A program made the position numbers and the translations under genes. 64,000 bases of DNA from Roseimaritima ulvae (GTDB lineage: Bacteria > Planctomycetota > Planctomycetia > Pirellulales > Pirellulaceae), in assembly GCF_008065135.1 (NCBI RefSeq), contig NZ_CP042914.1, positions 5,499,404 through 5,563,403 of the forward strand, written 5' to 3'. The notes beneath the pieces were generated by a model. The model saw only the letters and a program-made list of their open reading frames with translations, was not told the DNA's origin and searched no databases. Every line of letters starts with the position of its first letter. Within the stretch, counting starts at the first letter, position 1. Shown here in pieces: positions 31,218-61,547 of the stretch.

Positions 31218-31347
31218 GTTCCGCCTCGCTTCGCAGCTGCTCTTCGCTCTCGCGTCGATGCGTGAGCTGGGAGCGGCTGACAGATTGATTGCGCTGCAGA
31301 TATCAACGCTACGGAGGCAGCGGCCTCTTATTACAAGGAGTAACGGT

Positions 31348-41788: not shown

Positions 41789-44700
41789 TGACACGCTCCG
41801 ATTCCCAGCACCCGGCCCAACCCCCGGCGATGCGATCGTTGTTCTGCGTGGCGACCACGTTTGTGACGCCCGATGACGAACATGCTTCGCGCCGTTTGGG
41901 GCAACGGTTATACGACCGTCTGACCCGTGACCACCAGGACCCGTTGTCGTTTGGAGCGGGCATTCCGGTGGCGATCAACGTCGATATTCAGCGACATAGC
42001 ATGTGTGAAATCGCCGCCTTGGCGGACCATGTGCTGCTGATCTTTGTAGCCGGACCGACCTCGCTGCTGCTGCACCCCGACCAGACCACCGCCGACCTGA
42101 GCGGTTTTGGCATGCCGGACTCTCCAGAGCAGAAACCGAAGTGCCAACTGAGCAAAATGCTGGTGCCGACCGATGGCCGCTGGCCCAGCGAAGCGCCGCG
42201 GCTGGGCGAAGTCGTGGTCTCCAAGGGCGTGTTCGATGCAGACGGGATCGACGCCGCCATCGATTCGGTCTTGATGGCCATCGCCAAGATCCTGCGAGGC
42301 GACAGCCCCCGACCGCGTCTGTTGATCAACGACTTTGCCGAGGCGCACCCCAAACTGGGCACGGCCCCGATCGCGGCCTTGGTGGGAAAGCAGCGGACGG
42401 AGTTGTGGGATTATTTTTCCGAAGTGAAAACACTGCAGGACGGCGACTATCGCCAAACCAGCGATGGTGAATCCCAGACCGGCGTCGACAACGTGTTTGT
42501 CTGTCTGCACGGCGATCGGTACCGTGCCCGTGGTGAACGCCGGCTGCATGACCGCGAACTGCTGGCCGCCCAACAACGTGGCTGGCCGATCGTGCAGGTA
42601 CCGGCGGAATCCGCTGGCGACTGGAATGCGGTGCTGCGGCTGGCGGCTGGCGAGCATTTGCGGCAGCTACATTTTCGTAAAGTCGCCGAGCGGATGACGC
42701 AGTCCGGCTGGCTGCCGATCGGAACTCCGGTACTGTCTCGCCCGCCCGAGCTGGTCGACTTGTCTAGTGGTCCCCTCCGCGAATCCACCACTCGCACCGT
42801 ACTGCACCCCGACCCCGCACTGACGCCGGAAAAACGTGATGTGTTGCGCGCCGCCGCTCCGTTGCTGCATCCGATCACGCCCTCAACGCTACTCGGTCGA
42901 ACCGCCAGTCGGGACGCCGCCGACACCCTGATCACCCCGTTGGACGGGATGCGGGTGGGGCTGTCGGTTTCTCGGATTCCCGAAGGCGAATTTCAGGTCG
43001 GGCAAACCGATTGGCACCTGCAAGATGCCACGGTGCAATTAACCCGGACGTTGATCGGCGGCGGAGCGACGCTTACCTACGGCGGCAACTTTGTCGTCGG
43101 TCAGGAAAAGTCCTTCACGCCTTTATTGGCCGAATTGATCCAAGCTTACAACCAAACCGCCCAGGCGCCCGCCAAACGTCTGCAAGTTTTTCAGGCGCTC
43201 GATCGCTCCCTGGACGAAGTGCCCGCCGACGTGCTGTGCCGGATTCGCCACTTGGGATTGTCCACCGACTTGGCCACCCAAGCGGTTTTTTCCGAAGACG
43301 AAATCGAGGGTCTGCCGTCCGGCATGCTGGTCTCCGACATGCGCCGCGCGATGGCCGCCGAAACCGATGCACGGGTCGCGATCGGCGGACAGTCGTTCCC
43401 TCGCGATCAAGATACCCACGGGTACTCGGGCCGGTTCCCGGGCATTGCCGAGGAAGTCTACCGGGCATTGGAGGCCGGCCAACCGGTGTATCCATGTGGC
43501 GGTTTCGGTGGCATTACCGCGCGCATCGTCCAACTGTGGGAACACCCCGAGAAAATCGATTCTTTCTGGCGGGAAACGACCTACGACAACAACCGCGATT
43601 TTGTCAGCCTGATCTGGAATGTCGACAATCATCACAAGCGCGCGGCTTTAGAACTTCCCGCCAACCTGACCGAGTTGGCCCATGCCATTGCCGCGGTGGC
43701 CATCGAGCTGAACGATGACGATCAGGCTTGGATAAATTTCAATGGATTGACCTACCGACAAAACCAAACGTTGTGGCGTTCCACCGACCCCATCCTGCTC
43801 AGCTCCTTAATTGCCGAAGGCCTATTGCGACGGCGGAGTCGGCATGTGGTCGATGGTACGGCGCGGAGTAAGATTCGCATCGAAGCCATGTTGGGGAACA
43901 TTAATCTGGTATCGCGAACAGATCTGTTGGCCTTGGCGGTTTTTAAAGACGTCGACCCACAAGGCGCCGGCGCGGCGATCGATCGCGTCACTGGAGGTCT
44001 GATGCGACAGGCGCAAGCCATGCCAGGCAAGTTGCTGGGCGTGCGGAGCGACCAGCTGGATGTGGATTATCTGTGCGCGGTCTCGCTGGGCGATGTCACG
44101 GACGTCGGCGATGACCCGCAAAGCCTGAAGGCGGCGATCAAACAGGCCGTGATGCAAGCCTTGGATGTCTGTCATCGCGAAGGGTTTCGTTCGCTCGCGG
44201 TGGTCACGTTCGGTGGCTCCTCGTTGCCATCCTATGAGCAGGCCGTGAAACAAATGCTCTCCGGTTTTCGCTCGCACACCCACCAGGTGTTGGTGAAGTG
44301 GATCGAAGCCGACGAAGAAAGATACGCGAAATTGCTTGACAAGCTTCAGCAAAGCGACGACTTGGACGTGACCACGGTCCGCAAGGATTCCACCGTTGAA
44401 ATCCCCCAGACCAGCTATCCTTGGTTCCAACTGACGGTCAAGTACCGGTCCGGTCACCTGGATGTTACGGCCCTGGCTCGCGAGGGTACCGGACGGGCAT
44501 GGTCCAATCCGGTGACCGTCCGGGCCGATGTCATCGAGGCTCTGAGCGAAGGCATCGGCGATCGGAGACGCGAAACGCCGAACCAGCAAGAACTCACGCG
44601 GCGCGGCAAGCAATTGGTCGAACTGTTATTTGGCGAGCAGGCGGACGTTATCTGGCAGCGGTGCCGCGATGTGCCAATCGCCATCACCCATGATGCCGCC

Positions 44701-45459
44701 AGTTCGAAAATCCCCTTTGAGATCATGCAGTATGCCAGCGCCGACGAAGCCACTCCCTCGTGCCCCGCTGTCAACGGCGGCATCCATCGCTGGCTGGCGG
44801 TCCGGGACAACCACGCCGCGTCCATGTTTGCTCGCCCACGATTGTCACGTAAGCTGCGCGTGGGGCTGATCGTCGATCCCACCAAAGATCTACCCGGAGC
44901 AAGGACCGAAGGAGAGCAGATTCACAATGCCCTGGCCACCATTGGCGGCAATGTGCAGTCACAATACTTGGGTATCCACGGCCATCCCGACGCGACCCTG
45001 GAAAACGTCGTGGACATGCTGCGACACGTCGATGTGCTGCACTACTGCGGGCATGCTAAATTCGATAGCCAGAGCCGTGAAAGATCGGGACTGCTGCTGT
45101 TCGAGGACAAAATGCTGACCGCCGATATGCTGCACTCCATCGAACCGATCCCACGAGTGGTGATCTTCAACGCTTGCGAAGCCGGCCGGGTCCGCGGCGA
45201 ACCGAAAGAAGAACAACACCAAACCTTCTCGCTCGCCGAAATGATGCTGCGAGCCGGTGTGGAGGCGTTCTTAGGAACGTTTTGGGAAGTCAACGACAAG
45301 GCAGCCGAAGCATTTGCCAAACAACTCTACAGCACCTTGACCGAGGGCCAGTCTTTGCGTGCGGCCGTGACCGCCGGAAGAGCCCAATTGGCGGCCCAAG
45401 GCAAAAAGGACTGGGCCAACTATATCCTCTACGGCGATGGACGTTTCTGCCTGGCCTAA
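41788..45459 (+). CDS. TIR-like / SLOG-like / CHAT protease multidomain protein
   Basis: 1223 residues from ATG 41788 (TAATG overlap); the frame is open further up but only inside the caspase gene. Residues ~16-300 contain TIR-like segments (SLFCVATTF; VFVCLHGDRYRARGERR...ELLAAQQRGWPIVQV). Residues ~388-585 resemble a SLOG nucleotide-sensing domain (MRVGLSVS; LIGGGATLTYGGN at 422-434; YPCGGFGG at 568-575). Residues ~715-870 form an unassigned alpha/beta domain. Residues 1025-1223 are a CHAT caspase-like protease with HYCGHA (His1089) and FNACEAG (Cys1130), then FLGTFWEVND. CHAT is secure; SLOG is probable; TIR is tentative. It probably senses a ligand and acts with the upstream caspase. Confidence 0.82.
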   Translation: MTRSDSQHPAQPPAMRSLFCVATTFVTPDDEHASRRLGQRLYDRLTRDHQDPLSFGAGIPVAINVDIQRHSMCEIAALADHVLLIFVAGPTSLLLHPDQTTADLSGFGMPDSPEQKPKCQLSKMLVPTDGRWPSEAPRLGEVVVSKGVFDADGIDAAIDSVLMAIAKILRGDSPRPRLLINDFAEAHPKLGTAPIAALVGKQRTELWDYFSEVKTLQDGDYRQTSDGESQTGVDNVFVCLHGDRYRARGERRLHDRELLAAQQRGWPIVQVPAESAGDWNAVLRLAAGEHLRQLHFRKVAERMTQSGWLPIGTPVLSRPPELVDLSSGPLRESTTRTVLHPDPALTPEKRDVLRAAAPLLHPITPSTLLGRTASRDAADTLITPLDGMRVGLSVSRIPEGEFQVGQTDWHLQDATVQLTRTLIGGGATLTYGGNFVVGQEKSFTPLLAELIQAYNQTAQAPAKRLQVFQALDRSLDEVPADVLCRIRHLGLSTDLATQAVFSEDEIEGLPSGMLVSDMRRAMAAETDARVAIGGQSFPRDQDTHGYSGRFPGIAEEVYRALEAGQPVYPCGGFGGITARIVQLWEHPEKIDSFWRETTYDNNRDFVSLIWNVDNHHKRAALELPANLTELAHAIAAVAIELNDDDQAWINFNGLTYRQNQTLWRSTDPILLSSLIAEGLLRRRSRHVVDGTARSKIRIEAMLGNINLVSRTDLLALAVFKDVDPQGAGAAIDRVTGGLMRQAQAMPGKLLGVRSDQLDVDYLCAVSLGDVTDVGDDPQSLKAAIKQAVMQALDVCHREGFRSLAVVTFGGSSLPSYEQAVKQMLSGFRSHTHQVLVKWIEADEERYAKLLDKLQQSDDLDVTTVRKDSTVEIPQTSYPWFQLTVKYRSGHLDVTALAREGTGRAWSNPVTVRADVIEALSEGIGDRRRETPNQQELTRRGKQLVELLFGEQADVIWQRCRDVPIAITHDAASSKIPFEIMQYASADEATPSCPAVNGGIHRWLAVRDNHAASMFARPRLSRKLRVGLIVDPTKDLPGARTEGEQIHNALATIGGNVQSQYLGIHGHPDATLENVVDMLRHVDVLHYCGHAKFDSQSRERSGLLLFEDKMLTADMLHSIEPIPRVVIFNACEAGRVRGEPKEEQHQTFSLAEMMLRAGVEAFLGTFWEVNDKAAEAFAKQLYSTLTEGQSLRAAVTAGRAQLAAQGKKDWANYILYGDGRFCLA

Positions 45460-46503: not shown

Positions 46504-46897
46504 CTAGTGCTGCAGGTGCCCGTTGACGACCCTGACCCCAATCTTCACGATTTCTCGACCGCGATTTCCTGACCAGCTGATGAATATTTTCATGGCCGTC
46601 CCAAGATGTGAGAGAAGTGTTGCGGAACTACCTCGGAACACGGGCGCTCTCATTATGAGGCGTCAGGGACGCCCCACGCCAATTGTTTTGCGTGTCGAAA
46701 AAATCTTGGAATCTCGCATCTCGATTCGGATGCCGGTACATAGGTTGTGTTCGGCATAATCGGTCCCCGTCCCTGTTCGGCCGGGGGTTTCGCTGCTAAA
46801 TGGGGGGATGCCGCTCGGTGCCCCAACTACCGTAGAGCTTTCTTATGCTCGGCTCTCGTCAGGCCGAGCTTGTGGGCACTTCGTACTTGGCGTCATC

Positions 46898-49800
46898 ATG
46901 AAACACCTGGCTTTCATCCTGTTTGCGGTTGTTCAAGTATTCTCTCAGAATCGAGTCTTTTCTCAGACTCAAGGGATTTCAGAGACGCTTGAGGTCCCCA
47001 AAACCGAGGGATACACGGCGGCCCCCGAAACGTCGGCCGTTTCGCCTATCCAGTTTCCCGACGCAGAATTGTCGGCGCCGCCGGTCTACGAACTTCCTCA
47101 CGCTGCGCCACCCAACCGACAACTCGTGCCGCCGGCGGCCGCAGAGGAATATTCAGTCGGCGCGGCGGCGGCCGTGCCACTTGATGCGTCGATGGTCGTC
47201 GCACCACCGCTGAGCTCGGCGCCGCCGGAAATGCTGGCAGCCCCCGCACGATTGAGTTTGTATTCGCAGTCAAACGGTTCCCGTGATCGCTTGGTCAACC
47301 AGGACATTCCCGCGCGGGCTGCGACGCTGGCGTATGGTCCCCTGGAACTGGTCGTTCATATTCCCTGGATCGCCGACGTAGAACTGGACGCCGTGCGGCT
47401 ATGGATCGATGGCAAACAATCGCATCCATCGGAGCTTCGTGCGCTACACCGCGAGCTGGGAACGTTGGATGGGATCCCGACGTTGAACTTGCACTACCAA
47501 TGGAGTTGTCCGCCGCTGGGACGCCATGGCCTCCAGGTCACCTATTTGCGCGGCGATCGCTGGAGTGTGATCAGCCAGCCGGTACGATTTGAGATTCTGG
47601 CACCTGTCGCTCCTGAAATCATCGCCATCGGTGCCGACCAGCAAACGCCACGACCGCACGGCCGCGATCATGCCGTCTCGGTCAGCGGCAGCGTTCAGCT
47701 GAAACTTGCCGGCCCGCAGCCCGGCGATACGGTGGCGATCGATGTCAATGCACGTCAACTCTCGACCAAGACAGTTGACGACAACTGTTGCGTGACCGTT
47801 CACCTTCACAAACAGTTTCCAACCGGTCGGTATAAGCTGACCGTCCGTAGCGTCAGCGGATTGGCTTGCGGCCTGACCAGCAAACCATCACGGCCGCAGT
47901 GGATCGATCTGTATGATCACCGCAGCCAGGTCACCACAATCGATCTGATCGGAGCGGCTTCCTTGACCTTCCATATCAATCAGCCGGTTGCTGCTCCCAA
48001 ATTGCTTCGCCTGCCCGTTGAATATTTCCCACGCTCGCCCGTCCTGGAAGCTCCGCCAGTTGTCCTTTCGCCCCGGCAACCCGGCGAAATGTATCTGTCG
48101 CCCGCCGCCGAAGCGGACCATCCCACCACCCTCACCTCAAACGTCGAACCACGCAACCGCTTGCTGGATAGGGAATCGGACACCGAATCCGACACCACCG
48201 TCGCGCCCCCGGCTGTCCCTGCTGTCCCTGCTGTCCCTGCTGTCCCTGCTGTCCCTGCCGTCCCTGCCGTCCCTGCCGTCCCGGCTGTCCCGGCTGTCCC
48301 GGCCGCCTCCAACACTGCTGTCCCCGAAACCGCCGAATCCGACACAGGCGAATCCGAGGCTGCCGAAACACCGAACGTTGGACTGGATCCCCCAGGCGAG
48401 GCCGACGATCCAGGCAAGCCGGCGCCCCCCGCGTTACCGACGCCCGCAACCGGCTCGACCTGCCCTGGCTGCGGTGCGTCCTGCGAAATCGCTTGCGATA
48501 CCTGTCGGCAGTGCGGTTTGTGGCAAAGCAAAGCCGCCGAGCCGCACCACACGCTGACCGGTAATGTTAATGAACTACGGCAGCGAGGCGTGGTCGCCCA
48601 AGCCCGCGCAGAAAGTCTCTCCGCTCAACTGGAACGACTGCTGGAACACGCCCGGTCGCTGAATCACGAAAACGCGACCCTCCGCAACCGCGTGACCAGC
48701 CATCTCAAAGAGGTGGAAGGAGCCGTCGGCGAAGAGCTGAACTTGTATTGGATGCTTCAAGATCGACACACGCAGATTCAACGCAAATGGCAACTGCTGG
48801 AAGCTCTGCGGCTTGACCTCGCCGATCCCGATCTGCGGTACGCCGTCCAGGAAGCCGAACGCGACGTGCGAGCACGGTTCGAAATCGCCTCCAAGCTCCA
48901 AGCAAACTCGAAACCCAATGTCGTACGCAATCTGAAGCAGAATTTTGCCGCCGCCGAACAGACCCTGGGCCTGATTCCGATCGTCGATGCCGAGGATGAA
49001 CGCTCACAACAAAACGCCTTCCTACGGCTAAGCAGCATCCCAATACCTGGCGCTACAAACCCGCTAGCAACGGGCATAGGTCCCCTGTTTGAAGCCATTG
49101 CCCAAGCGTCTTCGATGCGAACACAGATTCTGAAGCATAAGGATCGGAGCACAACAGTACCCCACCCGCAGTACGTCCGCGTCGACTATACCCCGGCGGT
49201 AGAACTGTTGTTGCAAGAAGCCGAATTTGCCTCGCTTCCGCCACGTCGTGCTCAACTCGCCACGCAGCGACGGGCCCTTGATGCGGCAATGCAAACGCAC
49301 GAGCGCGACCTGAAAATCCTTTTGGACGACATCAAAACCCAACAACAAAACGCGATGGCTGACATCGTGGATACGCAACGGGCGATTGCTCATCAGCCCC
49401 CCGACCCCGCGGTTATTGCAGGCCTAACCGCTGTACTGAATCAAGCCGATGCCGCATGGGTCGTGGCCCAACAGAAGCTCAATGCCAATCAGGCCCCTGA
49501 CAAGAAACCAGCCCTCTCGAATCAGTTGGCCACCGCCGCAGACAAGCGAAGGCATGCCGCGGCGGAACTTGCCAAAGCGCAAGCCACTCAAACGCACCCC
49601 ATCACCGGTATCACGCATCTTAGAGAACAGACACAATTTTTATTCCAGGCTCAGGCCGACCTCCGACGTTTGCTCAGCGCGGTATCCGACTGCATCGCCG
49701 ACCAGACGCGGCGGCAACACCGTCTGGCAGAGCTGGAAAACAAATTGCAGGACGTGGCCGTCGACGTCCGCGGGCAGATCGCCGAATGGGAAGCTCATCG

Positions 49801-50554
49801 CGTCTATCTGGATCACCTCATCACGCAAGCGGACCAAGCCATCCAGCGTCGCCGAACGCTGGCCACCGCCACCGGACGAGCACTGTACCAAGCACGTCTT
49901 AGGGCCCAAGCCCAGCAGGCCGAACTGGACCAACAACTGCGTTACCAACAAGATACCCTCAACGCGCAACTCGCCGCCGAACAGGCCCGTGCCGAGTCGG
50001 CAGAAACTCTGGCGAGTCTGCATTGGCAGCGAGTACAAGCCCGCGACCGAGCGAACCAGGCGCTTCGCAGCGCCGCACCGCCCACGATCACCTACTTCCA
50101 CGCCCCCGCCCATTTTCCACTTGCTCGGTTTGGCAAAGGAGGTTTGGACGATGCCCGCGACGGTATGCTGATCGCCGAAGGGATGAAGCTGGAAACCAGG
50201 GCTGACGGCAGCTACCACGTCGAATACAAAGTCTTGCGGTCGGCCCTGCCGGCGAAATTGGTGTTGCAAATTCAATTCAAAACCAGTCCGCAGGCCGCCT
50301 GGGAAACGCTCTCGTTAAAGCCTCAGACCATCAGTCCCCGCACCCAGCGGATGGAAGCTGTTTCCAACACCGACGATTGGCTCGCTTCGCTAGGCCAAGA
50401 TCGGTATGTCACCATCACTGATCAAGGCTGGCACCCGGCGCTGCAACAGCGCGGTGGCCAAGTGGTCGAGGTTCGCCGCAGCGGCAATGCTCGCTTCGGC
50501 TACGGATTTAAAGGCCTAGACGTGTATGGTCGCGTTACCAGCCAATCCCCCTAG
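46898..50554 (+). CDS. Secreted coiled-coil protein with (Ala-Val-Pro)10 tract and Cys-rich motif
   Basis: 1218 residues from ATG 46898, where a signal peptide begins (MKHLAFILFAVVQVFSQ). The N-terminal half is Pro/Ala-rich with beta domains (ELVVHIPWIADVELDAVRLW; GDRWSVISQPVRFEIL; VSVSGSVQLKLAGPQPGDTV). Residues 439-468 are ten AVP triplets. Near 522-540 lies CPGCGASCEIACDTCRQCG, a zinc-ribbon-like cysteine cluster, unusual for a secreted protein. From about 560 to 1060 the chain is mostly long heptad-like helix rich in Gln/Ala/Arg. The C-terminal ~150 residues are a beta domain (YHVEYKVLRSALPAKLVLQI). Next gene starts 147 bases downstream on the same strand. Role unknown, perhaps envelope scaffold. 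Confidence 0.72.
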   Translation: MKHLAFILFAVVQVFSQNRVFSQTQGISETLEVPKTEGYTAAPETSAVSPIQFPDAELSAPPVYELPHAAPPNRQLVPPAAAEEYSVGAAAAVPLDASMVVAPPLSSAPPEMLAAPARLSLYSQSNGSRDRLVNQDIPARAATLAYGPLELVVHIPWIADVELDAVRLWIDGKQSHPSELRALHRELGTLDGIPTLNLHYQWSCPPLGRHGLQVTYLRGDRWSVISQPVRFEILAPVAPEIIAIGADQQTPRPHGRDHAVSVSGSVQLKLAGPQPGDTVAIDVNARQLSTKTVDDNCCVTVHLHKQFPTGRYKLTVRSVSGLACGLTSKPSRPQWIDLYDHRSQVTTIDLIGAASLTFHINQPVAAPKLLRLPVEYFPRSPVLEAPPVVLSPRQPGEMYLSPAAEADHPTTLTSNVEPRNRLLDRESDTESDTTVAPPAVPAVPAVPAVPAVPAVPAVPAVPAVPAVPAASNTAVPETAESDTGESEAAETPNVGLDPPGEADDPGKPAPPALPTPATGSTCPGCGASCEIACDTCRQCGLWQSKAAEPHHTLTGNVNELRQRGVVAQARAESLSAQLERLLEHARSLNHENATLRNRVTSHLKEVEGAVGEELNLYWMLQDRHTQIQRKWQLLEALRLDLADPDLRYAVQEAERDVRARFEIASKLQANSKPNVVRNLKQNFAAAEQTLGLIPIVDAEDERSQQNAFLRLSSIPIPGATNPLATGIGPLFEAIAQASSMRTQILKHKDRSTTVPHPQYVRVDYTPAVELLLQEAEFASLPPRRAQLATQRRALDAAMQTHERDLKILLDDIKTQQQNAMADIVDTQRAIAHQPPDPAVIAGLTAVLNQADAAWVVAQQKLNANQAPDKKPALSNQLATAADKRRHAAAELAKAQATQTHPITGITHLREQTQFLFQAQADLRRLLSAVSDCIADQTRRQHRLAELENKLQDVAVDVRGQIAEWEAHRVYLDHLITQADQAIQRRRTLATATGRALYQARLRAQAQQAELDQQLRYQQDTLNAQLAAEQARAESAETLASLHWQRVQARDRANQALRSAAPPTITYFHAPAHFPLARFGKGGLDDARDGMLIAEGMKLETRADGSYHVEYKVLRSALPAKLVLQIQFKTSPQAAWETLSLKPQTISPRTQRMEAVSNTDDWLASLGQDRYVTITDQGWHPALQQRGGQVVEVRRSGNARFGYGFKGLDVYGRVTSQSP
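48212..48301 (+). repeat. 9-base tandem repeat coding (Ala-Val-Pro)10
   Basis: Ten units of GCTGTCCCT and its GCCGTCCCT/GCCGTCCCG/GCTGTCCCG variants. The unit is three codons, so slippage changes length without breaking the frame. It codes a stiff, extended linker. Confidence 0.95.
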
Positions 50555-50701: not shown

Positions 50702-53700
50702 ATGGATTCTCAACAGGGGCATGGGCGAAAGCTTCAGCTGGTCGTTTGCGGCTGTGGAATGGTCTCCGGCTTGTTGGCTTTCCTGATCACGGGAAGTCTC
50801 CGCACCCATCGACCTACCGATGCCAGCAGCCTTCCGGTGGCGTTGGCCATCACTCACGACGCACCGGTTCTAAAATCGCCTGTCGAACGCCCACCCGAGC
50901 GCGTGCAGCCCGCTTCGCAAGCCGAGGGAACCGTCCAGACCGTGGCATGGATGCTGGCCGATGCGGATGAACAGCCAGCCAGCCCCGCCGGCCTGTCGGT
51001 CGCGTCCATCAAGCAACATTGGAACGGTAAGGAAATCGTTTGGTCGATTGACGAACGAACATCTAAGGTGCCCCTGCATCTGTCGGTTCCGTTTACCGTC
51101 ACCATCGCCCACCAAGCGAACCGCAGTTCTTTCCGACTTGGGCTAGCTGGTCAATATGACGGCGAGCGAATTGGCGATCCGGATGCTGAGAGCAAAAGCA
51201 GCGAATTCCGGTTCAAGGGGCTTACCGGCCCGCTGCCGGCAGACGCCAAGTTGCAAATATTTGCCGAACCCGAAGACGATCAGACCGACCCCGAGCTGCT
51301 TTTCGAGTTGCCAGCGCCGATCGTAGCGATATCCCAAGAAACACCGCGACTAACCGTCGATCGAGTCTCTAACGGCCCCTTTCACGATCCCACCAGTCTC
51401 GCCGCACATTCGCCGCTGAGCCTGTTTCCCTACACCAGCGGTGGCCAATCGCGCGCCTACATCGGTTTTACCGGCACGGCTCGTCGCAATGAAAACCTGC
51501 GAATCTTTGTATTGACGGAAGGCAGCTCGCTGTCCGCTTCCAGTGTCCCCGTGCCAGTACTTATCGACTCTGCGACCTCCACAAGCGGTTACAACGCCCA
51601 CGCCGAAATTCCCACCGCGGACCTTAGAGAAGCGCAAAACTTTCAGCTGATGGTGGTTACTCAATCCGGCACCAACGCTCGCGTGGCCACGAATCTTATC
51701 CCTTGCGAATTGGTCGACGATCCGCCGGTGATTGAATCGGTGACGCTAACGCCCCACGCTTCCAACGCCCATGCCGATGCAGCACTAGGCCAACGCGCGG
51801 ATGGTACGTATGTCGGCCGTTCTCTGGACGCGATGCAGGTCAAGATTACGACGGATAATGCGGAGAATGCGGATCTGACCGGCGTGGACGTCGTCATCCA
51901 AGAAGTGGGTGACACCGTCGATTCCGCCGCCTTGGGCAAGCATGCGGCGCAGGCGGCAGAGTTTTTGATACCGCTGGACCTCCCGACGCGCGCCGCGAAC
52001 GTCCCCATTCAATTAGTGGCCAACCTTTACAAGGGCAAAAGACAGCTAAACGCCCCCCAAGAAACTGTCGCGATTCGATTGCTTGTTCGTCCCTTGCGAG
52101 CCACGGTGCAGCACCAGGGGTTCGGAATTCGTGCCGGCGCGAACGTGCTCACGCTGCAGTTCCCCAACGACCAACCGTTAGATTTTCTAAAGGACACGTC
52201 GGTATTCGAGCAGTTGTACTCCGGCGATCCCAACAATGCCGGCCATCCGGGATCAGCCAAAGTCAAACTAACTGCTCAGCCGTTTTCCAACAGTCCAACC
52301 TTTTTAAAGCCGACGACCATTCAGTACATCTCCAACAGCAACACGCTGCGCATCGAATACGACGCTAGTCAGTTGCTGGTGGGTACCTATCAGCTTGAAG
52401 TCTCAGGTTTACGCGACATCTTTGGCAACACGTTGGTCGGCGATGAGCCCACCTTTAACGGTCTCCGCATGACCTTCGGTGACCAGCCCGGCATGACCGC
52501 TGCAAACGCCTTGCCGGGACGAGTGATGCCGGGCATCCATGGCGCTACCGGAAACTATGTCGCCTACCAAGAATGGACTCCGCCGCGCGATAAACCCGAC
52601 GGATTTAATCCCAACGACAAGGTCGAAACCCGCGTCGCCCGGCTGTATTTTTACCGCGACGCTCATCGCGTGGCGCAAATCATCAACCGCAAAGTGAAAT
52701 CGCACAACCGGCATGGTGTGTCCGCCACAAGGCAATTGGCCGATCAATCGCGTACCGTGGCCGATCAATTGACCGCCGCCCGGCAACAGGCTGAACGCGA
52801 AGCCATTCGCTTGGCCGAGGAGACACGGCGGCTGGAACAACAGCTCTCCGATGCTCGCCGCAACTTCGACCGAACCCTGTCAGATCTGCAGCGCGAGGCG
52901 CGTTCCATTCCACCGGTCGATCCCGATGATCCGGACAACGCCCAGCTGGACGCCGAACGTCAAGCGAAACAACAAAACATCGCCCGGATGGACGAAGTCG
53001 TGCGACGTTTTTCGGCGGAAGTCACTCGCTTGGAGGGCGCCGTCGATGCCGCTCGGCAAGACGAAGCCAACGCCCACGAACAGGCACAGCAAAAGGAATC
53101 GCAGGAACAGCTGGCTCGCCAAGAACAATTCCGTCGCGAACTGGCCGCCGCTCACGCCGACCCCGATACCTACGCCGAGGGCGTCCCCAGCAGTTCGGAC
53201 CCCATCGAGCAAACCAGCATCTCGGTGATCGGCGAGGGCCTGATCCATCTTCGCGGTCCGCTCAAGGGCGTGAACCAAATCCGTTTGATGATCGACCAAA
53301 TCGACACACCGGTCGGCCAGGTACGCGTAAACGTACACAGTACTCAAATCAACGGCGACGAAGCGGAAAAGCTGGAACTCGTTTCCTCACGGATCCAAAC
53401 CTACATCGACCAGGCGCGGTTCATGAGCGTGCAGACCGGCGAAATGCTGCGTAAATCCGTGGCCACCATTGCCGGGCAACGAGCCGAGGAAGCTCGCACG
53501 CTGTACCCCGGTGCCAGCCAACACGAACGAGACCAACGCTATCTGTACGCCTTCTTCGGTAAAGACTTCATCGATGAACTGGGGGCCATCGATTCGGAAT
53601 TCCTGCAAACAGGCAACAAACTGCTGTCGCTGCACTCCATGGATGTGACCAGTTTATCGTCGGCGTTGATGCTGATCGCGCTGGCCAACAATGGTACGCG

Positions 53701-56413
53701 TCACATGATCATGGAAGAGTTCCAGCGGCAACTTCACGAAGAGCTTCCGATCGCCGAACAAACCTATCTGGACTCCGGCGTATACATCGATGAAGACGAA
53801 TGCCTGCTGCCGTCACGCCCCGGCGACAAGCAAGGTCCGCTGCAGCGTAAGTTCCGAAGTCTGTGGGCCAAACACCACGGCCCACCTCCGGTTTACACGC
53901 TGTCGCAAAACGCCAGCTTCCAGTCCCTGGCCGGCTTCTTCGACACCTCGCTGCAACATGACGAAACCATGACGCCGTTGCAGCGAGAGTTTGTCCGCCT
54001 GGCACAAATATTCAAAAGCCGGCTGGTGACCGAACTCGAATACAAGCAGCGTGTGATGGAGCGGGCTCTGATCGAAGACCTGCTGGGAAATCGGACTCAA
54101 GAACTGCTCAATGCGCAACAAGAACAGGACCGCGCCAACGCGACTCTGAAAATTTCGGAACAGCAAAAGTCCGAAGCCACCCAGCAGGTGGTCGTGGAAC
54201 TGACCAAGACGCAAGCCGCCATCCGCGAGGCCACCAACGAAGCTCGTGAGTCGCTGCGATGGTTCGACGTTCAGTTCCGCGAATTTATCAACGACATTCA
54301 TAAACCCGCCCAACGGCTAGAAATCGAAAACTTTCGTCGCAGCCCGGCGATGTCTCTGCCGCACGCTTTGACTTTCTACGGCACCATCGTCGATGGCGTT
54401 CCATTTCAGATCCGCAAATTGGGCAACGTCCAAGGCGGCCATGACGTGGTGCTGGTGGTCGACCAGCCCGAGCTTCACCTCAAGGCCCGAAGCGGAATGC
54501 TCTCGGCGGTCAATCGCGCGATTGAATTGGCCAAGTCGTTGGCAGATTTTAACGCGGGGCCCAGCAGCGAACGCGTCAAGACGATTCGTGGAAATCTGTT
54601 GATCGTCAAGGAAGAGATCATCGTGGCTCCCACTCGCCGGGTTCCTCAGCTGCAATTCCGCTACGATTCGATCGAACAGTTCTCCGACTATTACCAAGAG
54701 CTGAAACAGCACGCCGAGTCGCTGATCAAGCTGCAGAGTGATTTGGCCGAGCAACGTATTGAATTGCTGCGGCAATTGAAGAATCCCGACAGCCCCTTCG
54801 ACGTGTCCTTCCAAATCTGGACCAACTACCAGACCCAGGTCCACGCGATTTTTGAGAACCATCCCGAAGGCGATGAGATCATCAATCGACTCAGCCGTGT
54901 CAACCAACAATTCGACGTATTGTTGGAAGTGGACGTCAAAACCGATTTTTTGACCCGGCAAGCCCACAACGCTCGCCGTCCGCTCGATCACAAAAAGTTC
55001 CTCGATATGTTGATCGACGACCTGGAGGAGAAGTACATCGAACTGCTCGAAGGCACACGTGCCCACACCGCCAATATCGACAACTATCTGAAACGCGTTA
55101 CCACGGCCCTGGACGACGACTTCAACACCCAGTTTTACCACCCGGCGTTTCGCAGTGTGCGGCAGGCCAGCCAATACGACGACGTTGAATTTGGACAAAC
55201 CGAAACCACCAACGTGTTGGCGAACAATCGAGAGTTCGCCAAGGTTTCTCCCAGTGCAACGATGGAGTTTGACCTGCCCAAACGCGACATCCTGATCAAA
55301 GAAGGCTTGGATTCCGCGCTGGCGATTTACAACGACGTGGGGGCATTGGTCAACGATCCCAATCTTTTGGCATTGGCGGCCAGCCAGACCGCCAATAGTC
55401 CGGCCGAAGTCGGCGCCGGCACGGGCGGCAACTTGAGTTCGGTTCGCAACGTGCTGCCCGGATTGTCTTCCGAAACCTCTGACGCCGTGATGGCTCAAAA
55501 CGCCGGCACACGGCCGCGGTACGAATCCAGTGTTGAAAAACTGATTCCCGATCCTGCTATCTATAAATTCGAAACCGGCACCGGCTTTGAAATCCGTCCG
55601 GTGATCCAACCCGACGGACAAGCCGTGGTGTTCGACTTTAATTACATGTACACCACCAATGTGCGTGAACCGGTTCGGGCGGATGAAAAACACCTGGGCC
55701 GCGTGAAACGACACTTCATCGATACCGACGTCCAACTATCGAACTTCGAATTGCGTGAAGTCAGCCGCTACGTGGTGGCGTTAAAAGCCGAGCGGACGGC
55801 GCGGGGCGTGCCGCTGCTGGAAGACCTGCCCGTGGTCGGAGCGCTATGGCGGCCGGTCCCCAACCGCGAGAAATCGCTGCAGCAGAACATCATCATGGCG
55901 CAGGCCACGATCTTTCCTACCTTGTTCGACTTGATGGGCATGCGATGGGCACCGGCGGTAGCGGACATCGATCCGCTGCGACTGAGCAACCGTGAATTCA
56001 TCGTGCGGGGGCGGCACCGTTTTCTGGAAAATCGCGTCTACGATGTCAGCAGTTCGCGAGTCGACGAATTCCTGCGGGTCCCCGAAGCGGAACGTCGTTC
56101 GGATCTGTACCGTTCGCAGTCGACAATCCCCTCGCAGCATCCCAACGGATACCGCGGGCCCGGCCTGGATTATCAAGACAGCCAATTGCGTGAAGGCTAT
56201 CAGCCCAACCGTGCCTATCCCAATTCGCAATACATCCCGGACGAGTCTTCGGAGGGCTCGATCTACGCTCCGCAACGCCCCTCCGTATCCCAACCGATGC
56301 CGGTAGCTCCCTACTCGATGGAACCGCTCGACGAGACGCCCCGCTTCCCGGATGCGGCCTTGGAACAACTGCCGCTGCCGATTCAATTGCCACCCGAGGG
56401 AACGAGGAACTAA
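50702..56413 (+). CDS. Giant secretin-like envelope protein (1903 residues)
   Basis: Starts at ATG 50702 with a basic leader and one N-terminal hydrophobic segment (LQLVVCGCGMVSGLLAFLIT). A large beta-rich region (to ~650) is followed by a coiled coil (about 670-820, LAEETRRLEQQLSDARRNFD). At 838-883 ISVIGEGLIHLRGPLKGVNQ...IDTPVGQVRVNVH reads like a secretin N-domain. More helix follows, then at ~1620-1770 a secretin-like core: NFELREVSRYVVAL, GVPLLEDLPVVGALWRP (1702-1718) and QNIIMAQATIFPTLF. The C-terminal 130 residues are disordered, Pro/Arg/Tyr-rich. Secretins are usually under 900 residues, so this is a greatly enlarged relative. Three neighbouring genes follow or precede it on the same strand. 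Confidence 0.72.
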   Translation: MDSQQGHGRKLQLVVCGCGMVSGLLAFLITGSLRTHRPTDASSLPVALAITHDAPVLKSPVERPPERVQPASQAEGTVQTVAWMLADADEQPASPAGLSVASIKQHWNGKEIVWSIDERTSKVPLHLSVPFTVTIAHQANRSSFRLGLAGQYDGERIGDPDAESKSSEFRFKGLTGPLPADAKLQIFAEPEDDQTDPELLFELPAPIVAISQETPRLTVDRVSNGPFHDPTSLAAHSPLSLFPYTSGGQSRAYIGFTGTARRNENLRIFVLTEGSSLSASSVPVPVLIDSATSTSGYNAHAEIPTADLREAQNFQLMVVTQSGTNARVATNLIPCELVDDPPVIESVTLTPHASNAHADAALGQRADGTYVGRSLDAMQVKITTDNAENADLTGVDVVIQEVGDTVDSAALGKHAAQAAEFLIPLDLPTRAANVPIQLVANLYKGKRQLNAPQETVAIRLLVRPLRATVQHQGFGIRAGANVLTLQFPNDQPLDFLKDTSVFEQLYSGDPNNAGHPGSAKVKLTAQPFSNSPTFLKPTTIQYISNSNTLRIEYDASQLLVGTYQLEVSGLRDIFGNTLVGDEPTFNGLRMTFGDQPGMTAANALPGRVMPGIHGATGNYVAYQEWTPPRDKPDGFNPNDKVETRVARLYFYRDAHRVAQIINRKVKSHNRHGVSATRQLADQSRTVADQLTAARQQAEREAIRLAEETRRLEQQLSDARRNFDRTLSDLQREARSIPPVDPDDPDNAQLDAERQAKQQNIARMDEVVRRFSAEVTRLEGAVDAARQDEANAHEQAQQKESQEQLARQEQFRRELAAAHADPDTYAEGVPSSSDPIEQTSISVIGEGLIHLRGPLKGVNQIRLMIDQIDTPVGQVRVNVHSTQINGDEAEKLELVSSRIQTYIDQARFMSVQTGEMLRKSVATIAGQRAEEARTLYPGASQHERDQRYLYAFFGKDFIDELGAIDSEFLQTGNKLLSLHSMDVTSLSSALMLIALANNGTRHMIMEEFQRQLHEELPIAEQTYLDSGVYIDEDECLLPSRPGDKQGPLQRKFRSLWAKHHGPPPVYTLSQNASFQSLAGFFDTSLQHDETMTPLQREFVRLAQIFKSRLVTELEYKQRVMERALIEDLLGNRTQELLNAQQEQDRANATLKISEQQKSEATQQVVVELTKTQAAIREATNEARESLRWFDVQFREFINDIHKPAQRLEIENFRRSPAMSLPHALTFYGTIVDGVPFQIRKLGNVQGGHDVVLVVDQPELHLKARSGMLSAVNRAIELAKSLADFNAGPSSERVKTIRGNLLIVKEEIIVAPTRRVPQLQFRYDSIEQFSDYYQELKQHAESLIKLQSDLAEQRIELLRQLKNPDSPFDVSFQIWTNYQTQVHAIFENHPEGDEIINRLSRVNQQFDVLLEVDVKTDFLTRQAHNARRPLDHKKFLDMLIDDLEEKYIELLEGTRAHTANIDNYLKRVTTALDDDFNTQFYHPAFRSVRQASQYDDVEFGQTETTNVLANNREFAKVSPSATMEFDLPKRDILIKEGLDSALAIYNDVGALVNDPNLLALAASQTANSPAEVGAGTGGNLSSVRNVLPGLSSETSDAVMAQNAGTRPRYESSVEKLIPDPAIYKFETGTGFEIRPVIQPDGQAVVFDFNYMYTTNVREPVRADEKHLGRVKRHFIDTDVQLSNFELREVSRYVVALKAERTARGVPLLEDLPVVGALWRPVPNREKSLQQNIIMAQATIFPTLFDLMGMRWAPAVADIDPLRLSNREFIVRGRHRFLENRVYDVSSSRVDEFLRVPEAERRSDLYRSQSTIPSQHPNGYRGPGLDYQDSQLREGYQPNRAYPNSQYIPDESSEGSIYAPQRPSVSQPMPVAPYSMEPLDETPRFPDAALEQLPLPIQLPPEGTRN

Positions 56414-56414
56414 G

Positions 56415-57209
56415 ATGCCCGCGAATGATCAATCGGACCAGCATCAGCAACTCGCAACGCGCCGCCAATGGCTCAGCGGCCTGCTGGCCATGCTCTCCAC
56501 TGCCGGCGTGTTCAAAGCGGCTGCGGCTATCGATCCATTGCTGCCCCGATTCCGACATACCTTCGGCGGTACGCTTCCCTGTCTGCCTCGACACGACTAC
56601 CAACACCATGCCCATTCGCCCACGATCCTATCGCCCAGCTACCCGGCACAGCTGATTACAGTGGATCGTTCCACGGAGCGTATCGAAACCGCTGCGCCAC
56701 TCGACGCGTTGCGGGACGTGGAGTTGAATCTGCAGCGCAAACGTTTTCGCCCTATTCGCACCCAACTGCGGATCGACCATTGCCGCGTCAGTGACGTGGT
56801 AGTCGATATCGAGAACAGCGGCATGTGGGTCATGTCCCTGCTGGCCGAACAAAACCCGCCTTTGGAGCCGGAACAAGATCGACGGTTTCAGCAGCGTCTG
56901 CACATCAAACGCAACGCCTTTGATTTTCAAGTTCGGTTCCACGCCGCCCAGTACACCCAAACATTGACGGTCAGGGAATCGGATGAGATGGCCGCCGAAC
57001 CCCAGGCCGGCCGATTGGTTGCGGCCCGCGTCCATCCGGACACGTTTTGGGTCCAGCGGCAACGACCACGGAATATGCGATGGAGTGGCTACAGCCGAGA
57101 GATCGCCAGATTTTTCGCAGATATCCAGTCCGCGGAATTCGAGTTCAGCTATCGCTTGGATCCGCTCAGCGCTGCCGGCGAAAACGTACGGCGACTCGAT
57201 GGACCTTGA
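56415..57209 (+). CDS. Unknown protein with N-terminal hydrophobic segment, downstream of the secretin-like gene
   Basis: 264 residues from ATG 56415, one base after the upstream stop, so translation is probably coupled. A hydrophobic stretch (QWLSGLLAMLSTAGVFKAAAAI, ~18-39) looks like a signal anchor or an RR-type leader (TRRQWLSG). The rest has alternating strands and helices (LRIDHCRVSDVVVDIENSGMWVMSLLA; QTLTVRESDEMAAE). No family recognised. Probably works with the secretin-like protein in the envelope. Confidence 0.65.
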   Translation: MPANDQSDQHQQLATRRQWLSGLLAMLSTAGVFKAAAAIDPLLPRFRHTFGGTLPCLPRHDYQHHAHSPTILSPSYPAQLITVDRSTERIETAAPLDALRDVELNLQRKRFRPIRTQLRIDHCRVSDVVVDIENSGMWVMSLLAEQNPPLEPEQDRRFQQRLHIKRNAFDFQVRFHAAQYTQTLTVRESDEMAAEPQAGRLVAARVHPDTFWVQRQRPRNMRWSGYSREIARFFADIQSAEFEFSYRLDPLSAAGENVRRLDGP

Positions 57210-57270
57210 TCCTTCGGTAACCGACGTTGCGTTACGTTTCCATGGCCTCCTATCAACCACGTACGATCTG

Positions 57271-58077
57271 ATGCAAGACAACCGAATGATGAGAAAGGCG
57301 ACGCTGGCCGCAACCATCGTGCTCAGCTTGTGGGCGGCTTTGGTGGACGGGCCTGCGGTGGCGGGCAACCCCAGATCATCGCAAGTCTCGCCGCTGTTGG
57401 AAATCGAAGTTCTCGACCCAGGCGTGGACGCTCGCGGCAATCCCGCCGTGGTACTGAACGACGTGGGATCGGGCACCGTGGTCGATATCCCACCAACGGT
57501 ACTCGTCCACCGCTACTACTTCACCGGCGAACGATCGTTTCGCGGACCCAATCTGCCAGGCGGCCCTTCGATCGTGGTCGCCAACCATCCGCGTACCGGC
57601 GAACGCGTGTATGTCTCGGTCCAACTATTGCCGGGTTCGCCGATGGTGCATTACCACAGCAACCGCATTGAATACGACTACGGTGATACTGGGATCAGCG
57701 TCGTGTTTCCCTGTCTGGGCGAGCCGCGTACCAAGATCCGTAGCGGCCGCAAGCTTTCCACTCGCGTGAACAACCTATTGCACCTGGACGAAATCAAATC
57801 CGCGCAGGAGGACAAAGTCAAACCGCGTGTCGGTCCGATTAAACGCGTCTCAATCGCTGCCGAAGGGCTGTTGCTGTCCGCCAAAGACGTGGTCCAGCCG
57901 CTGACTCAACCCGCCGAACACGCGCTGCGGTTGATCCCCGGCGTGGTGGCTCTGACCGATCCCAATACGGAAATCGAAAACGCTCGCCGCGTCCGCGAGC
58001 ACAACCTGGAATACGAACGGGAAAAGCTGAAACATCGCACGCTGCTCGACGACTTGGATCGCGCTACGATCCGTTAG
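57271..58077 (+). CDS. Secreted protein of unknown function in the secretin-like cluster
   Basis: About 268 residues from ATG 57271; ATGs at 57199, 57286 and 57289 are also possible. The signal peptide (MMRKATLAATIVLSLWAALV) supports a start near 57271-57289. The body contains beta-rich stretches (VVDIPPTVLVHRYYFTGERSFRGPN; RTGERVYVSVQLLPGSPMV) and a helical C-terminal tail (ENARRVREHNLEYEREKLKHRTLLDDLD). Unknown function; follows the previous gene by 61 bases. Confidence 0.65.
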   Translation: MQDNRMMRKATLAATIVLSLWAALVDGPAVAGNPRSSQVSPLLEIEVLDPGVDARGNPAVVLNDVGSGTVVDIPPTVLVHRYYFTGERSFRGPNLPGGPSIVVANHPRTGERVYVSVQLLPGSPMVHYHSNRIEYDYGDTGISVVFPCLGEPRTKIRSGRKLSTRVNNLLHLDEIKSAQEDKVKPRVGPIKRVSIAAEGLLLSAKDVVQPLTQPAEHALRLIPGVVALTDPNTEIENARRVREHNLEYEREKLKHRTLLDDLDRATIR

Positions 58078-58256: not shown

Positions 58257-60047
58257 ATGCGTAACAAAGCATCGGCGATGAGTATCCGAGCCGTTGTGGG
58301 GGTGATTTTTTTGCTCGGTGTCGGACGGTTGTTCCCCAACACCGCGGAGGCTCAGGTTGAGTTCTTGTCGCAGAACTGGGATGCCGACCAGCGGCAAACC
58401 TTCTACACCACCAGCCAGGGTTCGCGAATCATGCCCTACGACTGGTTCCTGGCCTTGGAAACCAGTGAGGGACAAGACTCCTTCGTTCGCGATCTGCTGC
58501 CCAAGTTGGGATACCTGCCCAACGACAACACCACCGACAATCCCGATCGGTTGCCGGTCGGCTTCGTTGCCGACATCGACGCTTCGCGACGTAAACACAT
58601 CGGACTGACCTGCGCGGCTTGCCATACCAACCAGATCGCCTACCAAGGCAAGACTTTTCAGATCGATGGTGCGCCCACTCTGGCGGATATGTGGGGCATG
58701 CTGGAAGGCATTGACAACTCGCTGACCGCCACCCGTGAACAACCCGATAAATTTGATCGCTTCGCCACCGCGGTTCTGGGCGAAGCTGCCGACGACGCTG
58801 CGGCCGTGGCCACCCTGAAAAGTGAATTGGATGAATTCTATGCGTATTGGCATCAATTCATCCACGACAGTCGCGTGCCGCATCCGTGGGGCCGGGCACG
58901 CTTGGATGCCTTCGGAATGATCTTCAATCGCGTCACGTCGATCGACCTGGGTATCCCCGACAACAGTCGGCCGCCCGACGCGCCGGTTAGTTATCCGTTC
59001 CTCTGGGGAACTTCGTTTGAAGACGTCGTACAATGGAATGGCTCGGCGGAAAATACCAACGACATCGAGAGACTGGGCAGAAATCTAGGCGAAGTGCTCG
59101 GTGTATTTGGGCAAGCCGAATTTCGCGGGCCCGGCTTCCTTCAGCTGCCGTCTTTCCGGACCAGCGCCAAACGACTGAATCAACTCAAACTGGAAAACCA
59201 ACTAAAAGAACTTTGGTCGCCGCAGTGGCCAGACCACTTGGGCGAAATCGATCCGGAAAAACATGCCGCTGGAAAAATCCTCTTCGAGAAAAACTGCATC
59301 CGCTGCCACAAGGTGATACCCCATGGCATGCAGCACACGCCGGTAACAGTGAAGATGACACCGCTGACGGTGGTCGGTACCGACCCCAAGATGGCCGTCA
59401 ACGCTGCCACCGGGACCGTAGCGACCGGCGACCTGAGACGGCTGATCGGCTTTCGAGCCAAGATGCCGCGGGGCGAATTGCTGCAAAAACTGGTGCGTCT
59501 GTCTTTGATCAGTCCGTTCAGGGACGTGCGGCAAAACCGACATCTGCTGCTTTCGCTGCCCAACGAAACCTTCTCCCCCACCGAAATCAAGAAATTCTTG
59601 CTCGAACTGGGGCTGACCGAAGACGATGCCATGAGACTATTGGCAGCCCATCATGACAAGTTAAAAGACTATTACAAAGATCTTCGACAAGCATCGCGAA
59701 TGCTAGCCACCGATTCGATCCCATCGGCGGAGGAAGATGTTCCGCAATCCCTGCGATATAAAGCTCGACCGCTGGACGGCATCTGGGCGACGGCTCCCTA
59801 CCTACACAACGGCTCGGTGCCCAACCTGTACGAATTGTTGCTGCCTGCAGAACAGCGTAGCGCGACGTTTTATGTGGGCAGCAATCAGTTCGACCCCGAA
59901 AAAGTCGGTTTCGAAACGCAGCAGGGAGAAGGTACGACGTTCTTCGATACTTCCCTGCCGGGCAATTCCAACGCCGGGCATGACACGTACGGTACGTTTA
60001 ACGAAGAACAACGTTGGCAATTGGTGGAGTACATGAAATCGCTGTAG
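58257..60047 (+). CDS. Dihaem c-type cytochrome, RoxA/LoxA-like
   Basis: 596 residues with a signal peptide (SIRAVVGVIFLLGVGRL...AEA). Two haem sites are present: CAACH (near residue 120) and CIRCH (near 346). MPYDWFLALE, RLDAFGMIFNRV and the C-terminal LDGIWATAPYLHNGSVPNLYELL resemble rubber oxygenase RoxA and related dihaem proteins. RoxA cleaves poly(cis-1,4-isoprene); planctomycetes carry several of these, usually with unknown substrates. A peroxidase-like role is also possible. Periplasmic. The gap 60048-60240 after it contains a terminator for the opposite gene. Confidence 0.82.
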   Translation: MRNKASAMSIRAVVGVIFLLGVGRLFPNTAEAQVEFLSQNWDADQRQTFYTTSQGSRIMPYDWFLALETSEGQDSFVRDLLPKLGYLPNDNTTDNPDRLPVGFVADIDASRRKHIGLTCAACHTNQIAYQGKTFQIDGAPTLADMWGMLEGIDNSLTATREQPDKFDRFATAVLGEAADDAAAVATLKSELDEFYAYWHQFIHDSRVPHPWGRARLDAFGMIFNRVTSIDLGIPDNSRPPDAPVSYPFLWGTSFEDVVQWNGSAENTNDIERLGRNLGEVLGVFGQAEFRGPGFLQLPSFRTSAKRLNQLKLENQLKELWSPQWPDHLGEIDPEKHAAGKILFEKNCIRCHKVIPHGMQHTPVTVKMTPLTVVGTDPKMAVNAATGTVATGDLRRLIGFRAKMPRGELLQKLVRLSLISPFRDVRQNRHLLLSLPNETFSPTEIKKFLLELGLTEDDAMRLLAAHHDKLKDYYKDLRQASRMLATDSIPSAEEDVPQSLRYKARPLDGIWATAPYLHNGSVPNLYELLLPAEQRSATFYVGSNQFDPEKVGFETQQGEGTTFFDTSLPGNSNAGHDTYGTFNEEQRWQLVEYMKSL

Positions 60048-60240: not shown

Positions 60241-61344
60241 TTAGCTTTTAGACTTAGGAGCGCGTTTGATCTTGGTCTTCTGACCATCCTGTTCCAGCGA
60301 ACGGGCCATCAGCACCACGCGGTCATTGACTTTCACCGGGACGCCTTGCACGGTCACTTTTGCACCTTCACTGGGGGCGTTAGATAACTGATCTTTGGCG
60401 CCCAGGTCCACCATCATTGTTTTACCGTTATCGGTTTCGACTTTGGCCAGCACGTGTTGCTGGTTTTGCACTTTCACTTCACGCGTGCTGGCGACTTTGC
60501 CGGTGTAATTTCGACCGTTGCGATCGATATTCAGATCGGCGTTTTTCGATTGAGCCTCCGTCGCGATCAGCAGTGGTTTGTCACCGACCTTGACGCGATA
60601 GCCAGTAGCGTCCAAGCGGTCGCCTTGAGCCAGCTGGTTTTTCAGTTGGGGCCCCAGATCGACGATCATAGTGTTGCCATCATTGGTCTTGAGATGAGCC
60701 ACCAAGTGCTGGCGGTCTCGGACGGTCACCATTTTGGTGCTTTCAACCGTTCCAGCCAGCTGCATTTGCTGCGAGCTGACGTCTTTCTGATGGCTCTGAG
60801 CGTCGGTCTTGGCCTTCTGATTGTCATCTCCGGATTTGTCGAAGCTGTAGTACGTAAAGTCTTCGTACACGCCGTCGTTGTTGCGGTCGAAGTAGTTCGT
60901 ATAGCTATCGTACAGACCGTCGTTATCGGAGTCGTTGTAGATCGTGTACGAGTGCCAACCCTGCGATTCCTGCTGGTTGCTTTGGCTATTGCGATTGCTG
61001 TTGTCCCACGTGCGACTGCCATCGTCGTAGTAATCGTAGAACCAGCGATCGTCATTGGACGTGTTGTCAGCGTAGCCGTAATCGTCCCGGTAAGCCATGT
61101 CGTTAATGCTATCGTTGTCTTGATCGGAACTGGTGGCGTTGTCGGCATAGCTGAAGACTTCGTCATCCCAGCGACCGATCGCTTCGTCGGTGGGGTTGTA
61201 GTCATTGCCGTCAAACCATTCGGAGACGTCGTACCAAGCGTCGTCTTCGTAGTGCCGCGAAGCCCGTTCATCGGCCATGGCGGTGCTGGCAAAGCCATAA
61301 GAAGCCGCGATCAGGGTAGCTAGAAGCATACGTTTTTTATTCAT
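60241..61344 (-). CDS. Secreted acidic protein with Asp-rich repeats and duplicated C-terminal domain
   Basis: 367 residues from ATG 61344, with GGAG 8 bases upstream and a signal peptide (LLATLIAASYGFASTAMA). Residues ~25-170 are Asp/Asn/Tyr-rich, with calcium-binding-like loops (DSDNDGLYDSY; DRNNDGVYEDF). The C-terminal half contains two similar ~75-residue units: GTVESTKMVTVRDRQHLVAHLKT..MIVDLG and GKVASTREVKVQNQQHVLAKVET..MMVDLG. Each could be a small beta-barrel. Function unknown; the acidic part suggests calcium-dependent folding outside the cell. Confidence 0.75.
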   Translation of the reverse strand: MNKKRMLLATLIAASYGFASTAMADERASRHYEDDAWYDVSEWFDGNDYNPTDEAIGRWDDEVFSYADNATSSDQDNDSINDMAYRDDYGYADNTSNDDRWFYDYYDDGSRTWDNSNRNSQSNQQESQGWHSYTIYNDSDNDGLYDSYTNYFDRNNDGVYEDFTYYSFDKSGDDNQKAKTDAQSHQKDVSSQQMQLAGTVESTKMVTVRDRQHLVAHLKTNDGNTMIVDLGPQLKNQLAQGDRLDATGYRVKVGDKPLLIATEAQSKNADLNIDRNGRNYTGKVASTREVKVQNQQHVLAKVETDNGKTMMVDLGAKDQLSNAPSEGAKVTVQGVPVKVNDRVVLMARSLEQDGQKTKIKRAPKSKS

Positions 61345-61547
61345 TGTGAGTTCTCCATGCGAGTGCATAAACAGAAGCGACGCCCCGCTTCGGGGCATCG
61401 GCGACCAGTCGGTCAGCACAGGAGAAAGCGTGCAAGCGCTATGCCAAAACGCAGCCTGACTGATAAATCATGCCAACTGGCCCGCGGTTCTCAGGATGCA
61501 CGGCTTCGATGCATCAGCTCGTGTTGCCACGAGGTGTCCCCGCGGGT

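Follow-up and report, generated by a model that had tools for sequence, protein, structure and literature searches.

The window, a 64-kb stretch of the Roseimaritima ulvae genome, holds on its forward strand an intact open reading frame (50702-56413) that starts with ATG and encodes a protein of 1903 amino acids. Sequence profiles and a predicted structure of its core confirm that this giant protein is truly related to the secretins, though greatly enlarged. Secretins are ring-shaped pores of bacterial outer membranes, and the family is known for heat-stable rings of 12-15 subunits in that membrane. The parts of the protein, from the N-terminus to the tail, are as follows.

50702..56413, forward: giant secretin-family protein, 1903 aa (Pfam, AlphaFold2 model, fold matches)
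50732..50791, forward: strongly hydrophobic N-terminal segment, residues 11-30 (hydropathy and motif rule)
50999..52618, forward: poorly conserved N-terminal region, residues 100-639 (Pfam, alignment)
52619..52705, forward: probable first half (beta-alpha) of a ring-building N-domain, residues 640-668 (a weak assignment)
52706..53200, forward: coiled-coil-like insert that probably splits the N-domain, residues 669-833 (alignment)
53201..53356, forward: second half of the N-domain and first barrel strand, residues 834-885 (model, profile comparison)
53357..55177, forward: mostly helical insert in the secretin core at the putative apical place, residues 886-1492 (model, alignment)
55178..55279, forward: two predicted barrel strands, residues 1493-1526, which are 671-683 and 688-699 of the model (model, alignment)
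55280..55570, forward: putative enlarged gate-1 stretch, residues 1527-1623 (alignment, model)
55571..55921, forward: remaining secretin core with a VPLLxDxPxxGxLF-type motif, residues 1624-1740 (Pfam, hhalign, model)
55922..56413, forward: C-terminal tail and stop, residues 1741-1903 (alignment)

Homology to secretins

Against the Pfam Secretin family (PF00263) the 1903-aa protein scores 17.6 bits (E=0.003), under the curated cut-off of 27.5, with residues 1620-1736 matching profile positions 52-166 of 169. The 970-aa core by itself gives E=8e-4. When 29 family members were scanned, 27 matched PF00263 at E<=0.1 (best 1.6e-4), and the 15 further Pfam families listed were found in one member apiece. 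A compact homologue of 820 aa (L070) reaches 32.4 bits and lies above the cut-off. The earlier note had read a secretin-like C-terminal core from the letters and named the lack of a secretin profile match as refuting; the matches in Pfam of the giant protein, of the 27 members and of L070 supply it and bear the reading out. The stretches quoted there, GVPLLEDLPVVGALWRP, QNIIMAQATIFPTLF and ISVIGEGLIHLRGPL...IDTPVGQVRV, are all present in the translation.

Comparison of alignments with hhalign points the same way, with a probability of 83.8% (E 7.9e-6) between the giant family and seven ordinary R. ulvae secretins, whereas the control against the unrelated alignment of a neighbouring gene family (partner 2, below) was negative (0.2%, E 0.32). 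Searches of PDB sequences gave an awkward result. The giant protein as a single sequence had no match with phmmer, and the family profile placed designed 'Cake' proteins on top (E 4.1e-8, summing nine repeats of about 3 bits) and secretins at E 0.12-0.88 only. The high rank of designed repeats and the single-sequence Pfam score below the cut-off could be taken to mean that a coiled-coil envelope protein bears a secretin-like motif by chance. That explanation is hardly credible and largely refuted by the match of nearly all homologues to one and the same family, by the short homologue above the cut-off, and by the profile comparison with its negative control together with the secretin fold matches described below.

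The nearest named profiles in NCBIfam are PilQ (E=0.0011) and SctC (E=0.0024), which would suit a secretin that belongs to a usual type II secretion or type IV pilus machine and has lengthened in this lineage. This is improbable on several grounds. The R. ulvae genome (one contig, 8.2 Mb) has 11 Secretin matches, of which the giant protein is the weakest and the other ten are above the cut-off; its neighbours are two unnamed partners; and it is absent from most of the planctomycete genomes searched (30 strong matches in 297).

Predicted fold of the core

Residues 826-1795 were modelled with AlphaFold2 from an alignment of 29 homologues (mean pLDDT 71.8, pTM 0.55), and the strands come in secretin order. 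In model numbering there are strands at 14-18 and 22-26, a helix at 29-42 and a strand at 48-60. Residues 63-668 form helices plus one small three-stranded piece (401-428), and further strands follow at 671-683, 688-699, 797-810, 816-829, 844-855, 859-870 and 899-913, with pLDDT below 50 for residues 720-794.

Foldseek searches of the PDB with this model gave 24 matches at E<=0.001, all of them secretins or secretin-holding complexes (best 8.3e-5); the TM-scores are low (about 0.1 of the model) because the insert makes up most of it. The first 27 of the 50 entries listed by VIA-align are secretins as well (Z 12.0 to 8.9), and their alignments extend over the model from about residue 7 to 914, as for GspD with 188 residues aligned over 7-914. 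The last of these shares its Z of 8.9 with a helical protein that is unrelated, and the entries from there down match helices only. The predicted fold of the core is that of the secretin double-walled barrel, with its strands placed after an N3-type domain. Loss of the barrel strands had been named as refuting; the model retains them, and its best PDB matches are secretins.

The insert in the barrel domain

In the giant protein the first barrel strand is followed by about 607 residues, most of them helical. Over 32 aligned rows this insert ranges from 301 to 668 aa. The distance from the first barrel strand to the next core motif is 644 residues here; eight ordinary secretins have 71-130 residues there, and two compact homologues have 338-339. 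The earlier note had placed a large coiled coil between N-domain and barrel; a long and mostly helical region is found in the model, although it sits inside the core, after the first strand. Matches to phage tail-fibre and tape-measure PHROGs (E 0.043) were at the level of coiled coils and were rejected.

The place of the insert can be compared with that of known apical sequences. According to the parts of the sources available, residues 199-234 of phage pIV (36 residues), shortly after the first strand in a domain that starts at 175, form the extracellular part of the barrel (PMC8563730), and the apical region has 51-60 residues in T2SS secretins and about 80 where there is a cap gate (PMC8563730, PMC10550240); a similar description of secretin rim and gates is given in the part seen of PMC10499894. 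As the insert lies at the apical place of pIV and the T2SS secretins, we infer that it is apical and should face outward.

N-domain, N-terminus and gate

The N-domain seen in the earlier note also stands, and its second half is clear in both model and profile comparison. Placing the first half at residues 640-668 is only likely. Profile comparison gave E 9.2e-5 for the second half alone and E 9.9e-5, with a longer alignment, for the joined halves, compared with 1.6-2.3e-4 for five wrong first halves. Joined halves were searched for Secretin_N in eight of ten joins; the family was matched at full length in two of these eight members, both compact (E 0.0078 and 0.054), and not in the window protein. 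On this weaker evidence a coiled coil probably interrupts the N-domain; it has 165 aa in the giant protein and 105-295 aa over 32 rows. By contrast with these variable parts, a piece of 52 residues that includes the first barrel strand and the core pieces of 34 and 72 residues have the same length in all 32 aligned rows.

No Pfam family was matched by residues 100-639. The hydrophobic segment at residues 11-30 is without an obvious signal-peptidase site and may be an inner-membrane anchor or a signal peptide. When a crude hydropathy and motif rule was applied to 28 N-termini (four cut ones were left out), 12, including that of the window protein, had a segment of mean hydropathy >2.2 without an AxA site, and the others have plausible cleavage sites. 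At the other end, the C-terminal tail has 163 residues; a C-terminal S-domain with a pilotin is a feature of T2SS or T3SS secretins.

By alignment, residues 1527-1623 appear to correspond to gate 1. The start of this stretch is conserved, its middle is modelled at low confidence, and its length is 69-107 aa over the 32 aligned rows. The likely first hinge has an invariant Glu followed by either Gly or Ala, depending on the row, at a point where the alignment is uncertain, and a glycine within ETGTG is a plausible second hinge.

These features bear on the possibility that the protein is a scaffold derived from a secretin, which has kept the fold and the ring, has lost channel gating and ties the outer membrane to the inner. 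The gate-1 stretch is enlarged and partly disordered, the residue after the Glu varies, and 12 of the 28 N-termini carry a very hydrophobic segment without an AxA site. In the same direction, Pfam scans of 16 open reading frames of the 64-kb window found no secretion ATPase or platform family; secretin genes may, however, lie apart from ATPase and platform genes. Conservation is strong in the rest of the core and extends to the short gate-2 stretch, as expected of a working barrel, and a scaffold is possible but unlikely. An outer-membrane channel is the simplest reading because the secretin core is conserved.

Partner genes

Two genes for exported proteins lie directly downstream of the secretin gene, and a third lies upstream.

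56415..57209, forward: partner 1, 264 aa (ORF clustering, profiles)
57199..58077, forward: partner 2, 292 aa from the ATG at 57199 (ORF clustering, model, profiles)
46808..50554, forward: upstream exported coiled-coil protein with a CxxC cluster, 1248 aa (Pfam, clustering)

Partner 1 begins 2 bases past the secretin stop, and its N-terminus resembles what we take to be a Tat-like export signal. Partner 2 overlaps the end of partner 1 and has a hydrophobic N-terminus followed by a predicted beta domain plus helices (AlphaFold2 mean pLDDT 75.4). Its model had no Foldseek match in the PDB at E<=0.001 and none in VIA-align at Z>=5 among 997 chains; this lack of matches does not show that the fold is new.

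By clustering of open reading frames, partner 2 is present in 31 of 40 loci. Six of the nine loci without it (L036, L047, L049, L058, L060, L062) are on contigs that end on the expected side, and the remaining three (L064, L065, L066) are compact or partial homologues. The same clustering found partner 1 in 20 loci, with seven more as a separate cluster. The order secretin, partner 1, partner 2 is found in 20 loci, while partner 2 is upstream in ten and divergent in one; for L055, L057, L059 and L061 among these eleven, clustering found no partner 1. Profiles compared across the two gene orders show homology for partner 1 (E 3.1e-15) and for partner 2 (E 5.1e-48), with three cross-comparisons as negative controls (0.05-0.43). 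Both exported partners stay with the secretin through the change in gene order.

A tree built from 32 rows places on one side of a branch the ten labelled rows in which partner 2 is upstream or divergent (99/99, 200/200 bootstrap trees). Pirellulaceae are found on both sides of it, so that there must have been duplication and loss, or else transfer.

The upstream protein of 1248 aa has relatives at the same place in 11 loci. The Caspase and SLOG/CHAT genes a short way upstream were tried as parts of the system and rejected, with no relatives in the 40 loci at E<=1e-4. They encode a Caspase-domain protein (39743-41788, forward; PF00656, E 4e-26), whose gene overlaps the next, and a SLOG-cluster2 plus CHAT protein (41485-45459, forward; E 7e-33 and 9e-29). 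PADLOC gave caspase at E 2e-19 and BovA at 4e-6, and the two may be a defence or cell-death pair.

Elsewhere in the window, an MdoG-type periplasmic glucan protein (E 2e-130) and an adjoining glycosyltransferase (28606-30381, reverse, and 31258-33417, forward) are likely to belong to osmoregulated glucan synthesis. Directly 3' of the module is a RoxA-like cytochrome c family protein (58257-60047, forward; E 6e-19), and 60241-61419 (reverse) encodes an exported-looking protein with a first half very rich in Asp, Tyr and Asn and no Pfam match at E<=0.001.

Distribution of the family

Among 98 related genomes searched, 10 including R. ulvae had giant-secretin matches. A scan of contigs gave 36 loci, several of which apparently repeat contigs of that search and two of which (L054 and L062) are from one assembly; 33 are planctomycete, two are labelled 'bacterium' only and one is assigned to Candidatus Nealsonbacteria, the last probably a misplaced contig. 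Class and phylum surveys used a profile of residues 1500-1770. In the class Planctomycetia 36 of 297 genomes matched at E<=0.001, 30 of them, R. ulvae included, strongly (E 1e-27 or better), one at 1.3e-14 and five at about 1e-4 (8.5e-5 to 4.9e-4). Of 392 genomes drawn evenly across the phylum, 11 matched, six of them strongly; the five beyond the class are weak. The distribution is patchy, with soft absences because the genome searches scored the first few candidates only. Carriers include the culturable Blastopirellula marina DSM 3645 (L051) and Stieleria sedimenti (L052).

The five weak class matches are most likely ordinary secretins, because the one tested (L068, genome G278; 1415 aa) has seven Secretin_N stretches and a full Secretin domain. 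A lipoprotein beside it was tried as a relative of partner 2 and dropped (hhalign 3.9%). The second match of genome G127 (L069:6808-13599, reverse) is a secretin of 2264 aa that is enlarged in another way, with eight Secretin_N stretches and a full Secretin domain; the neighbour tried there as a partner-2 relative gave 0.3% in hhalign.

Full-length members reach 2229 aa and compact members have 820-860 aa. The compact homologues L070, L064 and L065 are like the giant protein in the core and in the places of the inserts, with an insert of about 300 residues, but are without the long N-terminal region. Clustering found no partner genes beside L064 and L065, the latter near a contig end.

Proposed function and significance

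The giant protein probably (at about 0.62) serves as the outer-membrane secretin of a planctomycete cell-envelope machine not described before. The observed basis for this is the core homology with the predicted fold, the position and length of the insert, and the gene module. The C-terminal core and one N-domain would form a ring and a double-walled barrel in the outer membrane, like those of known secretins. The insert of about 607 residues would leave the barrel apically and give rise to a large crown of helices at the outer membrane or beyond it. The coiled coil of the N-domain and the long N-terminal region might reach across the wide planctomycete periplasm, in some members starting from a possible inner-membrane anchor. 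The two exported partners may dock on the secretin or help its assembly, and cargo would pass through the outer-membrane channel.

No description of the giant secretin family was found in the open PMC literature (subscription papers lie outside this scope). The family, with its exceptional inserts and its two constant partners, is real and, within the literature searched, undescribed. Secretins are usually pictured as a conserved barrel in which N-terminal rings and small apical gates vary. About 600 helical residues inside the barrel domain would broaden what a secretin pore can carry, and the occurrence of the gene module in culturable strains gives a handle on the make-up of unusual planctomycete outer-membrane complexes.

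Comparison with known systems

Planctomycetes have crateriform structures, described as outer-membrane complexes or surface pits fastened to the cell membrane, some with fibres, and the crateriform text seen in part in PMC5394234 names no secretin. A link between the giant secretin and these pits is attractive but purely hypothetical, and the patchy distribution of the family speaks against a universal role and rules it out as the general crateriform component. A more specific and quite unlikely proposal is that a single secretin spans the envelope, with its N-terminus in the inner membrane, an Ig-like and coiled-coil periplasmic stretch, a barrel, and on the surface a helical crown of megadalton scale, estimated for a ring of about 12-15 copies of 600 residues. 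Together with its partners it would form, in the planctomycetes that carry it, a base for pits or fibres specific to the lineage, one type of crateriform structure.

The giant family has in common with the secretins of PF00263 (GspD, PilQ, InvG/SctC, RcpA and pIV) a ring-building N-domain, the order of the core strands and the VPLLxDxPxxGxLF-type motif. It differs from them in having about 607 apical residues in place of 36-80, a gate-1 stretch of about 97 residues, a probably split N-domain and a long unclassified N-terminus. Vibrio-type secretins with a cap or top gate share with it the extra apical sequence in the barrel, as far as the parts of the descriptions available go (PMC10550240, PMC8563730), but there the apical sequence consists of about 80 residues in pairs of beta-strands, whereas in the giant family it has about 600 residues that are predicted to be mostly helices.
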